Positions 8,542 to 19,257 of a stretch of 20,707 nucleotides of DNA are shown in pieces. Under the pieces are notes generated by a model. That model was not told the DNA's origin and searched no databases. It was given only the letters and a program-made list of their open reading frames with translations. A program made the position numbers and the translations under genes. The first letter of the stretch is position 1, and each line of letters opens with the position of its first letter. This DNA comes from a virus. Where the stretch lies: positions 1-20,707 of the IMG/VR virus record IMGVR_UViG_3300011116_000196; one strand, 5' to 3'.

Positions 8542-9450
8542 ATGGCTATTTCACGCGCACAACTACTGAAAGAGCTGCTCCCCGGCCTGAACGCACTGTT
8601 CGGTCTTGAGTACGCTCGCTATGGCGAAGAACACAAAGAGATCTACGAAACCGAGACCTCTGAGCGTTCGTTTGAAGAGGAAACCAAGCTGTCTGGATTC
8701 TCGGCCGCACCGGTCAAGAACGAAGGCTCTGCGATTGCTTATGACAACGCGCAGGAAGCTTGGACGGCTCGCTACACCCATGAGACCATCGCTATGGGTT
8801 TCTCGATTACCGAAGAGGCAATCGAAGACAACCTGTACGATTCGCTCAGCTCACGTTATACCAAGGCGCTTGCTCGTGCCATGGCCTATACGAAGCAGGT
8901 GAAAGCCGCAGCAGTATTGAACAATGGATGGTCTTCGACCGTAACTTACGGTGACGGACAGCCTTTGTTCTCTATATCGCATCCTCTTGTATCGGGTGGT
9001 GTAAACAGCAATACGCCAGCAGTCCAGTCTGACTTGAATGAAACATCGTTGGAAAACGCTGTCATTCAAATCGCAGCATGGACGGATGAACGTGGTCTGT
9101 TGATCGCAGCTCGCCCACGCAAGCTGATTGTTCCTCCCAACCTCCAGTTCGTTGCAACTCGTTTATTGGAAACCGAACTCCGTGTCGGAACCAACGACAA
9201 CGATATCAACGCAATCAAGAACAATGGTTCGATCCCCGAGGGATACACCATTAACCACTTCTTGACTGATACCAACGGCTGGTTCCTTACCACCGACGTC
9301 CCTAATGGATTGAAGCACTTTGTGCGGACACCCATGCAGACAGGGATGGACGGGGACTTTGATACCGGCAACGTCCGTTACAAAGCCCGTGAGCGTTACA
9401 GCTTCGGCGTATCAGATCCTCTGGGCATCTTTGGAAGCCAAGGCGCCTAA
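8542..9450 (+). CDS. Major capsid protein, HK97-fold type, 302 aa
   Basis: The main head shell subunit. It has the features of the Mu gpT-like branch of HK97-fold capsid proteins: an N-terminal helix (RAQLLKELLPGLNALF), an extended charged E-loop-like region at about 30-60 (HKEIYETETSERSFEEETK), a long spine helix in ITEEAIEDNLYDSLSSRYTKALARAM, then LIVPPNLQFVATRLL in the peripheral domain and a final KARERYSFGVSDPLGIFGS. The length fits. It has an AGGGGAA ribosome binding site, follows the decoration-like gene by 11 bp and is followed by the only clear intrinsic terminator in the window, consistent with high expression of a gene cassette that ends here. Confidence 0.85.
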   Translation: MAISRAQLLKELLPGLNALFGLEYARYGEEHKEIYETETSERSFEEETKLSGFSAAPVKNEGSAIAYDNAQEAWTARYTHETIAMGFSITEEAIEDNLYDSLSSRYTKALARAMAYTKQVKAAAVLNNGWSSTVTYGDGQPLFSISHPLVSGGVNSNTPAVQSDLNETSLENAVIQIAAWTDERGLLIAARPRKLIVPPNLQFVATRLLETELRVGTNDNDINAIKNNGSIPEGYTINHFLTDTNGWFLTTDVPNGLKHFVRTPMQTGMDGDFDTGNVRYKARERYSFGVSDPLGIFGSQGA

Positions 9451-9467
9451 TTAGGTCGCTTGAGGAG

Positions 9468-9494
9468 AAAGGGGGTTGCAAAGCCCCCTTTTTT
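9468..9494 (+). terminator. Intrinsic (Rho-independent) terminator after the capsid gene
   Basis: Stem AAAGGGGG (9468-9475) pairs with CCCCCTTT (9484-9491) around an 8-nt loop, and the T-run continues to 9494. It lies 17 bp after the capsid stop codon. Confidence 0.9.
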
Positions 9495-9503
9495 ATTTAT
9501 ACT
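9476..9503 (+). promoter_or_regulatory. Candidate promoter overlapping the terminator
   Basis: TATACT (9498-9503, five of six -10 matches) is preceded after 16 nt by TTGCAA (9476-9481, four of six -35 matches), which lies in the terminator loop. Initiation near 9510 would give a transcript starting at the structured leader. The -35 match is modest. Confidence 0.4.
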
Positions 9504-9509
9504 CTTGGT

Positions 9510-9588
9510 ATCTGGGAAACCCAGCTTGTCAGACTGTCCCAGCAGACGATGCACCGATTGGCAAGCTACTTGTGCATAAGGATTTATC
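9510..9588 (+). promoter_or_regulatory. Structured 5' leader with predicted pseudoknot (riboswitch- or thermometer-like)
   Basis: Stem 1 pairs AGCTTGTCAG (9523-9532) with TTGGCAAGCT (9558-9567), ten pairs including two G-U. Its loop contains ATGCAC (9549-9554), perfectly complementary to GTGCAT (9572-9577), which directly precedes the AAGGA ribosome binding site (9578-9582). Together these make an H-type pseudoknot. An upstream hairpin CTGGG-AAA-CCCAG (9512-9524) competes with an alternative pairing of CTGGGA (9512-9517) to TCCCAG (9537-9542). The layout resembles translation-controlling leaders; the ligand or signal is unknown and I match it to no named family. Confidence 0.5.
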
Positions 9589-10071
9589 ATGGCTTTAGCT
9601 ACTACCTCAGCCGTCTGGCGTTCGACCGGCGGTGACTCCACACGTACCGCTTATGCTGGCTCCATGAAGATGGTTGCCCAGTTTTACGCATCTTGCGCTT
9701 CCAATCCTGGAACAAAACTTACCAAGTCTTCTGTAGACACCGGCAATGTCATTCTTCCTGCAAACGCAGTGGTAACTGACATCATCATCGTTGACGGCAC
9801 TGGCGCAAGCACGGCTCAGTTTGATATGGGCTACATCCGCTACAACGACACGACGGTTGGCGATGCAGATTGCTTGCTCAACAACGCTAAGGCAAATAGC
9901 GTTGGAGCGTTCAATATCATCTCTGCAACGTCTGGTGACTCAATTGGTGATGTGCTGTATTCCACTGGGTTGGTTTATCTAACCGGCGGTGCAGGTGACA
10001 CCATTGGCGGAGGTGCTGTTTCGGGCTATGTCGAGTATTTTGTCCGCGATAACGGCGCTGAAAACGTCTAA
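9589..10071 (+). CDS. Hypothetical virion-type protein, 160 aa
   Basis: First gene after the capsid terminator, preceded by the structured leader and an AAGGA ribosome binding site. The protein is rich in Gly, Ala, Thr and Ser with beta-strand patterns (NVILPANAVVTDIIIVDGTG, then GAGDTIGGGAVSGYVEYFV) and no charged core, typical of phage structural proteins. Neither a signal peptide nor a membrane helix is evident. I do not recognise a named family. Its separate promoter and leader suggest that its dose relative to capsid protein matters, for example as a decoration or head-fibre protein. Confidence 0.7.
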   Translation: MALATTSAVWRSTGGDSTRTAYAGSMKMVAQFYASCASNPGTKLTKSSVDTGNVILPANAVVTDIIIVDGTGASTAQFDMGYIRYNDTTVGDADCLLNNAKANSVGAFNIISATSGDSIGDVLYSTGLVYLTGGAGDTIGGGAVSGYVEYFVRDNGAENV

Positions 10072-10639: not shown

Positions 10640-10894
10640 ATGGAAACAGGTACGTTAGTTTGGAACTTAGTAACTTCCTTCTTTGTGGCGCTAGTCATGT
10701 TCATGATTAAGATGAACCACGATGAGCAGAAGCGGATTCAGATTCTGCTGAATCGAACTCGGGAGGAGATTGCCCGTGATCACATCACTCGTGCAGAAGT
10801 TAGACAGGATTTGGAAAAGATTATGGAACGCTTTGACTCAGGCATTGGAAGGCTTGAAGCAAAGATTGATGCACTTTCGGAAAGGAAAGCATGA
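10640..10894 (+). CDS. Small membrane-anchored coiled-coil protein, 84 aa
   Basis: Residues about 7-23 (VWNLVTSFFVALVMFMI) form a single membrane helix at the N-terminus. The remainder is a charged coiled coil (NRTREEIARDHITRAEVRQD and RLEAKIDALSERKA). The architecture fits a small inner-membrane phage protein, such as a holin-associated or spanin-like protein, but no lysis enzyme gene lies nearby to support that. It follows the DUF6321-like gene without a gap and overlaps the next start by 4 bp. The function is unassigned. Confidence 0.7.
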   Translation: METGTLVWNLVTSFFVALVMFMIKMNHDEQKRIQILLNRTREEIARDHITRAEVRQDLEKIMERFDSGIGRLEAKIDALSERKA

Positions 10895-11151
10895 TGGCCC
10901 GAATGAACAAAGATGATCCAAGGCAAGGTCGCGGCTATCACGGCGACTCTCCCTACAACCCAAACTTTGACATGGTGCCGACCATGAAAGAGCGTGGTGC
11001 AATGCAGCAAGAAGCGGAAGATGCAAAGCTACGCAAGATGGATAAGCGCCCCGAGCTTGGAAAGATGTTTAAGAATGGCGGCTATGTTCGTGCAGCAGAT
11101 GGCTGTGCCAAGCGTGGAAAAACCAAAGGAACAATGGTTGTAATGAAATAA
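10891..11151 (+). CDS. Small basic protein with C-terminal DGCAKRGKTKG tag, 86 aa
   Basis: Start ATG overlaps the previous stop by 4 bp, with an AAAGGA ribosome binding site. The N-terminal half (NKDDPRQGRGYHGDSPYNPN) is polar and probably disordered. Residues 63-86 contain GGYVRAADGCAKRGKTKG and then TMVVMK, a basic tag shared with three other proteins in this window. Its TAA stop is the first three bases of the 24-bp palindrome at 11149-11172. No enzyme motif is visible. The tag suggests a shared partner or location, perhaps nucleic acid or the virion interior, which is inference. Confidence 0.72.
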   Translation: MMARMNKDDPRQGRGYHGDSPYNPNFDMVPTMKERGAMQQEAEDAKLRKMDKRPELGKMFKNGGYVRAADGCAKRGKTKGTMVVMK

Positions 11152-11172: not shown

Positions 11173-11188
11173 ACCTGTGGAGCAGGCT

Positions 11189-11764
11189 ATGAAACGCAAA
11201 ACAAAGAAGTACGCAGGGGGTGAACTTATAGATTCCTTCTCTGAGTTTCAGGGATTCGGCCAGATGGGTCCAAGGACGATCCAAGAGGATATCAATGCCC
11301 AGGCTGAAGAAGAAAAACGCCGACCAAAAAAGGAAAGCGTCTCACTGGCGGAGTTTGAAGAGCCTGCAACTGCTGGATTTAGCAGGACCGCCACGAAGGT
11401 GGAAACACCTAAGCCTGAAAAAGCACCGATTGTTACCAAAGAGCAGATGCAAAAAGCTGGCTTTGACAATCTGCGTGACTACCTGAATGCTCAGAAAGGG
11501 TTGACCCGACGAGGTGAGACAAAGCCCGCCAGCCAGACGAAATCGTCTGGTCCATCTCTGTCATCGTACGATCCAGACCCGCGGGCTGCTCGATCAACCA
11601 ACGTCAGTTACCTACGCAAAGATCGCTTTGGCATGGAGCCTGACATGTATATTGCTCGCCGCCGGATGAAAGAAGGTTTCAAGTCGGGTGGTAAAGTAGG
11701 ATCAGCATCAAGCCGCGGTGACGGGATTGCCAAGCGTGGTAAAACCAAGGGCAGGATTATCTGA
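11189..11764 (+). CDS. Basic protein with C-terminal DGIAKRGKTKG tag, 191 aa
   Basis: I chose ATG 11189 because GGAG lies at 11179-11182; the GTG at 11177 is an alternative only 17 bp from the palindrome centre. The protein begins MKRKTKKYAGGELIDSFSEF. It is polar and charged, with a Lys/Pro/Glu-rich middle (about 35-120) that is probably disordered and a more structured DRFGMEPDMYIARRRMKEGF at about 146-165. Residues 167-191 carry the tag (GGKVGSASSRGDGIAKRGKT, then KGRII). The stop overlaps the next start (TGATG). I do not recognise a named family beyond the tag. Confidence 0.72.
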   Translation: MKRKTKKYAGGELIDSFSEFQGFGQMGPRTIQEDINAQAEEEKRRPKKESVSLAEFEEPATAGFSRTATKVETPKPEKAPIVTKEQMQKAGFDNLRDYLNAQKGLTRRGETKPASQTKSSGPSLSSYDPDPRAARSTNVSYLRKDRFGMEPDMYIARRRMKEGFKSGGKVGSASSRGDGIAKRGKTKGRII

Positions 11765-12135
11765 TGGATAAGGTAGGCCGAGTCATGCGAGAGTTCAAGG
11801 AAGGCAAGCTTAAGTCTTCCTCGGGCCAGAAAGTTACCAACCCCAAGCAAGCGATTGCTATTGGATTATCGGAGCAGAGAGCTATGAAAGGTTACAAAGC
11901 AGGTGGCGAATCAAAAGCCATGGTAAAGAAAGAGATCTCTTTCATGAAAGAGAAGGGCGCCCCCAAGCCCATGATCAAGCACGAAAAGGCTGAGATGAAG
12001 GGCATGAAGGAAGGCGGATTTATGGCGAGCAAGATGGGCTCGGTGAAAACCGCTGCTCCTAGCCGCGATGGTGTTGCAGCCAAGGGTAAAACCAAAGGCA
12101 CCATGGTGAAGATGCGTAAAGGTGGTTGCGCTTAA
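11764..12135 (+). CDS. DUF6496-like basic protein with tag, 123 aa
   Basis: Begins MDKVGRVMREFKEGKLKSSS and continues GQKVTNPKQAIAIGLSEQRA, the signature of DUF6496, a family found in phages and bacteria with no known reaction. The middle is Lys/Met-rich (FMKEKGAPKPMIKHEKAEMK) and the C-terminal part (about 91-123) holds the shared tag as RDGVAAKGKTKG, followed by a further basic TMVKMRKGGCA. It is highly basic throughout. Its start overlaps the previous stop by 1 bp. A DNA- or RNA-binding or internal virion role is inferred from charge. Confidence 0.78.
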   Translation: MDKVGRVMREFKEGKLKSSSGQKVTNPKQAIAIGLSEQRAMKGYKAGGESKAMVKKEISFMKEKGAPKPMIKHEKAEMKGMKEGGFMASKMGSVKTAAPSRDGVAAKGKTKGTMVKMRKGGCA

Positions 12136-16668: not shown

Positions 16669-16876
16669 TACGGACTTTCTGCAATTTGCAGAAGGCGGTA
16701 AAGTCTCGAAAGTAAATGAAGCTGGCAACTATACAAAGCCCAGTATGAGAAAACGCTTGTTTAATCAGATCAAGGGTGCGGCTGTGCAAGGCACGGCGGC
16801 AGGCCAGTGGTCCGCGAGAAAAAGTCAATTGTTAGCCAAGCGGTATAAGGCCGCAGGAGGCGGGTATCGTGACTAA
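16592..16876 (+). CDS. Small basic phage protein with QWSARK motif, 94 aa
   Basis: ATG 16592 has an AGGAG ribosome binding site at 16580-16584, so translation starts 77 bp inside the 3' end of the giant gene. A second ATG at 16610 is less likely, because MLRSRGMGAINPSKMP matches the beginnings of such proteins as I know them. The C-terminal half reads KPSMRKRLFNQIK, GQWSARKSQLLAKRYKAAGG and GYRD, a conserved block of small phage proteins that I associate with DUF5872-type sequences, with some doubt. It is strongly basic with a GGKV element. The 3' end overlaps the next gene by 8 bp. The function is unknown. Confidence 0.72.
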   Translation: MLRSRGMGAINPSKMPQAKVKRRRDNTDFLQFAEGGKVSKVNEAGNYTKPSMRKRLFNQIKGAAVQGTAAGQWSARKSQLLAKRYKAAGGGYRD

Positions 16877-17186
16877 CGCCTACGAAACAGACGAAGAAGA
16901 AAAAAAGCGGCTTTCAGCACAACTTACCAATGTAGATATTGGCAAGGGCGGGATGGGTGCGACTGGCCGTGTAAGTTACAAGTTGCCTGTTGATAAACAG
17001 TCAGAGATTGAAGCCTATGCCGATATAGAAGCACGAAAGCGCAAAGGTGAAAATATGACGTTAGCGGCCCCCATGTTTGGCGTAGGATATACCCGTCGGT
17101 TCAAACAAGGCGGGAAGGTAAAGTCAGCATCGGCCCGTGCGGATGGTATAGCTCAACGCGGGAAGACCAAAGGTCGGATGGTATGA
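16869..17186 (+). CDS. Small protein with C-terminal DGIAQRGKTKG tag, 105 aa
   Basis: GTG start at 16869 with a full AGGAGG ribosome binding site at 16855-16860, 8 nt upstream, overlapping the previous gene by 8 bp. Residues 25-75 (GKGGMGATGRVSYKLPVD, then AYADIEARKRKGENMTLAAP and MFGVGYTRRFKQ) look like a short beta-rich domain. Residues 81-105 carry the shared tag (GGKVKSASARADGIAQRGKT, then KGRMV), here on the far side of the giant gene from its three other carriers. The next gene overlaps by 4 bp. No named function. Confidence 0.72.
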   Translation: MTNAYETDEEEKKRLSAQLTNVDIGKGGMGATGRVSYKLPVDKQSEIEAYADIEARKRKGENMTLAAPMFGVGYTRRFKQGGKVKSASARADGIAQRGKTKGRMV

Positions 17187-18838: not shown

Positions 18839-18997
18839 ATGGATATGAAAGAAGCACTCAAGAAGCACATGCAAAAAGGCAAAGGGGCTCACCCGGATGC
18901 CAATGTCAAGAAGCTTCGCAAAGGCGGCCCAACATCCGAGATGATGCGTAAAATGGGACGCAACATGGCACGGGTACGTAACCAGGGGTCCAAGTGA
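18839..18997 (+). CDS. Tiny basic phage protein, 52 aa
   Basis: A short frame starting at ATG 18839 with AGGAGT at 18828-18833 overlapping the previous stop. It begins MDMKEALKKHMQKGKGAHPD and ends with KGGPTSEMMRKMGRNMARVR and NQGSK. The GPTS-x2-M-x-K-x-GRNMARV-x-NQG pattern is one I know from tiny phage proteins in connector modules. It is Lys/Arg/Met-rich and strongly basic, probably a single helix plus disordered ends. The stop overlaps the next start by 1 bp (TGATG), supporting a real coupled gene. The function is unknown. Confidence 0.72.
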   Translation: MDMKEALKKHMQKGKGAHPDANVKKLRKGGPTSEMMRKMGRNMARVRNQGSK

Positions 18998-19257
18998 TGG
19001 CTAAATACTCCATGAAGATGGGCGGCAAAGAAGTTGGACCGGCCTCTGTCTATGCAGAACCGCATACGATGGAAGGCGCCAAGGTTGTTGCTTCTCCTGA
19101 GCCAGGCAAAAGAATGCCGTACAACATGATCCCTGATTGGCAGCCAACCTGTGGGGTAGCTAGCAATCCCAATCTTGGCGTTAAGACGACCGGGATTAAA
19201 ATGCGTGGGTCAGGCGCTGCGACCAAGGGCGTCATGTGCAGGGGACCGATGGCGTGA
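18997..19257 (+). CDS. Small protein with C-terminal RGSGAATKG-x4-RGPMA tag, 86 aa
   Basis: ATG 18997 overlaps the upstream stop; the GTG at 18994 is a less likely start. It begins MAKYSMKMGGKEVGPASVYA, has a Pro-rich middle (EPGKRMPYNMIPDWQPTC), and ends GIKMRGSGAATKGVMCRGPM A. This ending is a second recurrent tag of phage basic proteins as I recall, and its R-G-x-ATKG-x-M core is reminiscent of the RGKTKG tag elsewhere in the window. The stop overlaps the next start (GTGA). No enzyme motif is visible, and the role is unknown. Confidence 0.72.
   Translation: MAKYSMKMGGKEVGPASVYAEPHTMEGAKVVASPEPGKRMPYNMIPDWQPTCGVASNPNLGVKTTGIKMRGSGAATKGVMCRGPMA

Follow-up and report, generated by a model that had tools for sequence, protein, structure and literature searches.

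A leader RNA with two interlocking pseudoknots behind the gpT-like capsid genes of aquatic phages

What does a structured RNA do in front of a phage virion gene, and is it an RNA that is already known? The question is raised by a short gap between two genes in a 20,707-base virus record (IMGVR_UViG_3300011116_000196), probably a fragment, from a tailed phage whose capsid gene is Mu-gpT-like; the whole of this stretch is called the window below. A sequence-only reading had proposed that the gap encodes a pseudoknotted, cis-acting leader of a virion gene, a proposal that covariation among relatives supports.

The locus and the fold of its leader

The genes, signals and helices of this locus all lie on the plus strand. 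Directly upstream of the leader is the major capsid gene (8542-9450; 302 aa, Mu gpT-like / Phage_capsid_4), which matches PHROG 371 (E 6.8e-24) as well as the Pfam families PF25209 (E 8.8e-15) and PF10124 (E 4.2e-11). Its stop codon is followed by a rho-independent terminator-like hairpin for the capsid transcript (9465-9494), and an equivalent GC hairpin with a U run is visible ahead of many relatives' leaders. A predicted sigma-70 promoter (9476-9503) places the transcript start at about 9510; it consists of TTGCAA (9476-9481), which falls within the terminator loop, a 16-nt spacer and TATACT (9498-9503). This promoter match alone is not rarer than chance; its position relative to the first helix of the leader is conserved. 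The leader itself (about 9510-9588) fills the space between the predicted promoter and the start codon at 9589, with the Shine-Dalgarno (SD) sequence AAGGA at 9578-9582.

The gene that follows (9589-10071) encodes a 160-aa, predicted all-beta, cement/decoration-like virion protein that belongs to no Pfam or PHROG family. Its AF2 model is all beta (pLDDT 81), and a fold search with it gave no PDB match at E<=0.001, returning only weak jelly-roll/cement-like ones such as the cyanophage Pam1 capsid unit (7eel_H) and KHP30 (7dn2_1). In phage DSL-LC04 the gene at the corresponding position carries the annotation 'cement protein', and the 160-aa protein is a probable capsid cement protein. We also observed that several different small ORFs nearby in the window (10891-11151, 11177-11764, 11764-12135, 16869-17186 and 18994-19257) end in a similar lysine-rich C-terminal motif resembling ADGxAxRGKTKGxxV.

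The leader consists of four helices, H1-H4, in two interlocking pseudoknots, with the strands arranged in the order H1a, H2a, H3a, H1b, H3b, H4a, H2b, H4b and SD. H2, identified by RNAalifold and pair counts, joins 9523-9532 (AGCUUGUCAG) to 9558-9567 (UUGGCAAGCU) in ten pairs that include G-U, its 3' strand being immediately preceded by an invariant A9557. Inside its loop, AUGCAC (9549-9554), usually 3 nt past H3, pairs perfectly with GUGCAU (9572-9577), which abuts the SD on its 5' side; this is H4. Also within the H2 loop, H3 pairs CUG (9534-9536), preceded by the invariant A9533, with CAG (9543-9545), followed by the near-invariant A9546. The second pseudoknot arises from H1, in which CUGGG (9512-9516) near the 5' end pairs with CCCAG (9538-9542) of the H3 loop. 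The sequence-only reading had described the ten-pair stem and the exact pairing of its loop with the bases directly before AAGGA, and both are present as described; H1 and H3 had escaped it.

A ten-pair stem combined with a six-pair pseudoknot from its loop to the SD flank turned up in just 1 of 20,000 dinucleotide shuffles of 9510-9577. Plain minimum-free-energy folding of the leader finds no unusual stability (z 0.15); because such folding is blind to pseudoknots, thermodynamics alone would miss this RNA. Two mutually exclusive upstream hairpins had also been suggested. One of them, predicted at 9499-9511 in the centroid fold, overlaps the -10 box and is located, in essence, ahead of the predicted start site. 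The other, CUGGG-AAA-CCCAG at 9512-9524, does compete with H1. A competing local hairpin of at least four pairs occurs in 40% of 96 relatives, which is above swapped controls, and we therefore regard it as an optional feature and not as core; it would suit a switch in those roughly 40% of relatives, the window included.

Covariation and occurrence among relatives

Leaders of relatives were gathered beside homologous genes by protein-based scans; false matches of the descriptor scans inside genes were weeded out by hand and by demanding both H2 and H4. When 56 leaders were aligned with MAFFT, blind to structure, RNAalifold found H2 and the three-pair H3 unaided, with double changes in 10 of 12 pairs. 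In this alignment 97.2% of the H2 and H3 cells are paired, compared with 73.4% after shuffling and at most 46% in slid controls. Alignment of 96 distinct sequences to a covariance model, R1, gave similar values: 95.4% paired against 66.1% shuffled and at most 40% in slid controls, and 379 cells with double changes where shuffles predict 98. (One relative, L117, was misaligned in alignment A1 and excluded from the model, which matches it weakly, E 0.44.) H3 is paired in 100% of the 96 relatives, its middle pair varying among U-A, A-U, C-G and G-C.

The two pseudoknot helices were tested by swapping strand partners between sequences. H1 forms at least five Watson-Crick pairs in 96 of 96 relatives, as does H4, a result that 0 of 2,000 permutations reach for either helix; the sums of own pairs exceed every permutation for both, and control segment pairs are unremarkable. 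Relatedness is not taken into account in these permutation controls, but the diversity of the helix sequences and the negative control pairs make inheritance without structure implausible. The compensatory changes in homologous leaders, whose absence the sequence-only reading had named as a refutation, are thus strongly present, in both alignments and in the strand swaps. Among the 96 relatives, the only unpaired bases that are invariant or nearly so are A9533, A9546 and A9557, with C9547 and G9556 each at 91%.

The fold is also coupled to the ribosome-binding site. The SD core begins exactly where H4 ends in 56 of 96 relatives and within -2 to +5 nt of that point in 94, and three relatives (L112, L117 and L120) have the SD contained in the H4 strand itself. 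At the other end, 62 of 88 loci have their best -10 hexamer 7-10 nt before H1, so that the RNA probably starts 1-4 nt ahead of this helix; taking a consensus prediction of the start site, H1 begins at +2 to +5 in most loci. With a conserved structure, compensatory changes and a coupling to the ribosome-binding site just downstream, the RNA has the features that define a cis-regulatory leader.

How widespread is this RNA? Two scans that used its letters alone, and no gene, each returned at least 120 stretches. A gpT-like capsid gene lies upstream of 113 and 112 of the 120 listed matches of the respective scans (225 of 240 together), and the other 8 listed in the second scan are all at most 870 nt from a contig end. 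An SD and a start codon follow each of the 120 matches listed in that second scan. Searched with R1, 26 of 28 records hold a single leader; one lacks it and one has a second copy. This second copy, in a 65-kb record, is accompanied by a second copy of the capsid gene, and we rejected it as an assembly-end duplicate. We likewise set aside an assignment of hosts from genome contigs, as the 20 matches fell in bins of unrelated phyla and are probably mis-binned phage.

Isolates were located via the capsid protein, as a DNA search of the phage collection for close relatives gave chance or terminator matches only. A related capsid occurs in 21 phage records; among the eight of these that were read, the leader is present in phage DSL-LC04 (E 3e-9) and in Pelagibacter phage HTVC023P (E 5.7e-13). 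The control of a phage virion gene by such an RNA had been called unusual; instead, the leader is the rule in this phage group, which spans lake and ocean phages and includes cultured SAR11 phages. Separately, three records deposited with three different cyanobacterial hosts (OQ594354.1, OL906435.1 and PP438419.1) have an equal length of 65,014 bases and an identical capsid match.

By eye, from translated starts, genes resembling HNH- or GIY-YIG-type homing endonucleases have repeatedly been inserted between the capsid terminator and the promoter and leader of the cement gene (loci L083, L088, L091, L102, L103, L105-L107, L122, L133, L134, L136, L147, L148, L150 and L161). In another contig, L153, a 23-aa ORF between the capsid gene and the leader (1706-1777) is PqqA, the pyrroloquinoline quinone precursor peptide (NCBIfam TIGR02107, E 1.8e-10, 40.4 bits against a cut-off of 20), so that a phage contig carries pqqA; adjoining it are an Rfam abiF RNA (1798-1835; RF03085, 45.5 bits) and, near that RNA, an HNH-like ORF on the opposite strand (1838-2206).

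The gene after the leader is short, its product usually 130-300 aa, and falls into several families, including WRSTGGD, ATHLGPWLLGT, TTFxGPVRSLGG and STFEGPILSG types. Profile comparison relates families A4 and A7 (99%) and leaves A3 and A4 borderline (58%), and A5 and A6 share at most a short N-terminal motif. Over the body of the protein, no profile similarity is detectable between A3 and A5 (1.2% probability), A4 and A5 (0.2%) or A3 and A6 (0.3%). The leader thus outlives replacement of the body of its downstream gene.

What the leader may do

The leader probably controls when, or how much of, the downstream protein is made. We favour, at a probability of roughly 60%, a 5'-terminal cis element in which H4 gates ribosome access to the SD and H1 and H3 lock the core. 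A dedicated sigma-70 promoter past the capsid terminator would start the leader transcript at the predicted site, and the first nucleotides of the transcript (H1) would be tied into a compact core of H1 and H3 within the H2 loop. The same loop would also capture the bases just before the SD or, in some subtypes, the SD itself (H4). With H4 closed, the 30S subunit would be hindered at the SD of the cement/decoration-like gene; with H4 open, translation would start. The leader would thereby allow a high-copy capsid surface protein to be set in timing or amount independently of the capsid gene. As H4 stops at the SD in most sequences and does not cover it, the gating would be steric, a step that we infer, as we do the start site and the protein's cement role; equally, H4 could assist initiation by stacking on the SD-antiSD helix. 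We count in favour of gating that structured leaders of other kinds, likewise linked to the SD, occupy this place in sister phages, namely Mu-gpT-DE and, by eye, those of HTVC027P/023Pt_psg01 and Pag-Yong1. At least two, perhaps four, unrelated folds would then occupy one spot, and we tentatively suggest, as a possibility that we hold with less than even confidence, a switch that couples cement translation to the state of infection or of capsid assembly.

Some of the same observations would fit an RNA that never switches. In this main rival reading, a double pseudoknot could simply hide the transcript's 5' end, in the manner of a stabiliser or an exonuclease-resistant fold, and keep other pairing away from the SD region, which would give a high-copy virion protein a long-lived and well-translated mRNA: H1 sits 1-4 nt from the predicted 5' end, few unpaired bases are invariant (A9533, A9546 and A9557), H4 usually ends just before the SD and leaves it free, and the leader is retained when the downstream gene changes. 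Yet simple hairpins would suffice for such protection, which explains neither the paired SD flank nor the subtypes L112, L117 and L120 that include the SD in H4, and we think constitutive protection rather unlikely. A translational operator bound by the cement or the major capsid protein, which would keep the two in proportion, has its models in T4 gp32 and ribosomal protein S15, and a pseudoknot beside the ribosome-binding site of a virion gene, nearly always adjoining a capsid gene, is what such an operator would look like. However, the same RNA precedes families without detectable profile similarity (A3/A5, A4/A5 and A3/A6), and proteins that are homologous stand behind two distinct RNA folds (68 of 68, see below). 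The downstream product is therefore unlikely to be the specific ligand, and an operator of this kind is improbable. The protein repressor envisaged by the sequence-only reading thus loses its product-specific form, and regulation by the capsid protein or by a host factor is possible.

That reading had also named a metabolite or temperature as the signal, and we found nothing that points to either. Compact multi-pseudoknot folds that end at the SD are common among translational riboswitches, and phages that infect streamlined marine bacteria are known to carry riboswitches (PMC9004378). A metabolite or ion riboswitch controlling this virion gene is nevertheless very unlikely: Rfam offers no riboswitch match, in sister phages the same gene has a different fold in front of it, and three invariant or near-invariant unpaired adenines may be thin material for a ligand pocket. 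Least credible of all is a trans-acting RNA, or a DNA site for packaging or recombination. Rfam does file Mu-gpT-DE as 'Gene; sRNA', and insertions of homing endonuclease-like genes are frequent just upstream, but the covariation of the helices is that of an RNA, the orientation and the distance to the SD are constant, and an SD and a start codon come after every listed match of the second RNA-only scan.

Comparison with sister and known RNAs

No Rfam 15 family scores above its gathering threshold at the leader, and loose thresholds added chance matches only. We had first suspected Mu-gpT-DE (RF03012) itself, an RNA that reportedly originates from Weinberg 2017, and reciprocal model searches rule this out. 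RF03012, with a cut-off of 49 bits, has no match at the window's leader or in 72 related records; as a positive control, it places 12 of 12 true Mu-gpT-DE loci above the cut-off. Conversely, R1 does not find Mu-gpT-DE loci (marine examples were fetched with a pattern from the Rfam consensus), its one match being at chance level (E 0.98). In the part of the literature on this phage group and on phage RNAs that was covered, the leader is not described.

The two RNAs are alike in their setting. Mu-gpT-DE, too, follows a Mu-gpT-like capsid gene and terminator and runs up to the SD and AUG of the gene behind it; all 68 of 68 proteins downstream of it have homologues downstream of the present leader, and Roseobacter phage CRP-902 has Mu-gpT-DE (72 bits) in the same spot. 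They differ in structure: Mu-gpT-DE is 53 nt long and, by eye, forms one hairpin within a short stem between its 5' end and the SD (CCU:AGG in the Rfam structure line). It has no H1/H3/H4 pseudoknots, whereas the present leader joins its 5' strand to the H3 loop and its SD flank to the H2 loop.

Inspected by eye, HTVC027P, 023Pt_psg01 and Planktothrix phage Pag-Yong1 seem to form H-type pseudoknots of their own, in which a loop pairs with the SD region, at about the same point of the genome (L284:5480-5555, L287:5430-5530 and L283:4945-5012). They resemble the present leader in that a stem loop pairs with the SD region and the gene follows a comparable capsid gene, but the H1/H3 core is not seen, and HTVC027P/023Pt_psg01 and Pag-Yong1 are each represented by one or two independent sequences.

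The leader adds a well-supported structured RNA class, absent from Rfam, that is very common in aquatic phages, and as HTVC023P grows on cultured Candidatus Pelagibacter HTCC1062 (SAR11), it can be tested. Together with Mu-gpT-DE, it presents different RNA folds at apparently one job, the control of a capsid surface protein, pointing to a general and unexplained need for post-transcriptional control of cement-protein synthesis.

Among well-known leaders, the operators of T4 gene 32, rpsO/S15 and the alpha operon/S4 are 5' UTR pseudoknots that adjoin or lie near the ribosome-binding site and bind their own product; the present RNA, by contrast, is kept across dissimilar products. The preQ1-II, SAM-II and SAM-V riboswitches are H-type pseudoknots in which a hairpin loop pairs with the SD region, and the present leader differs from them in sequence and topology, having a second pseudoknot through H1 and H3. 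Its most fitting place is among the known 'structured leaders behind gpT-like capsid genes', as a new RNA class and not as a member of Mu-gpT-DE.
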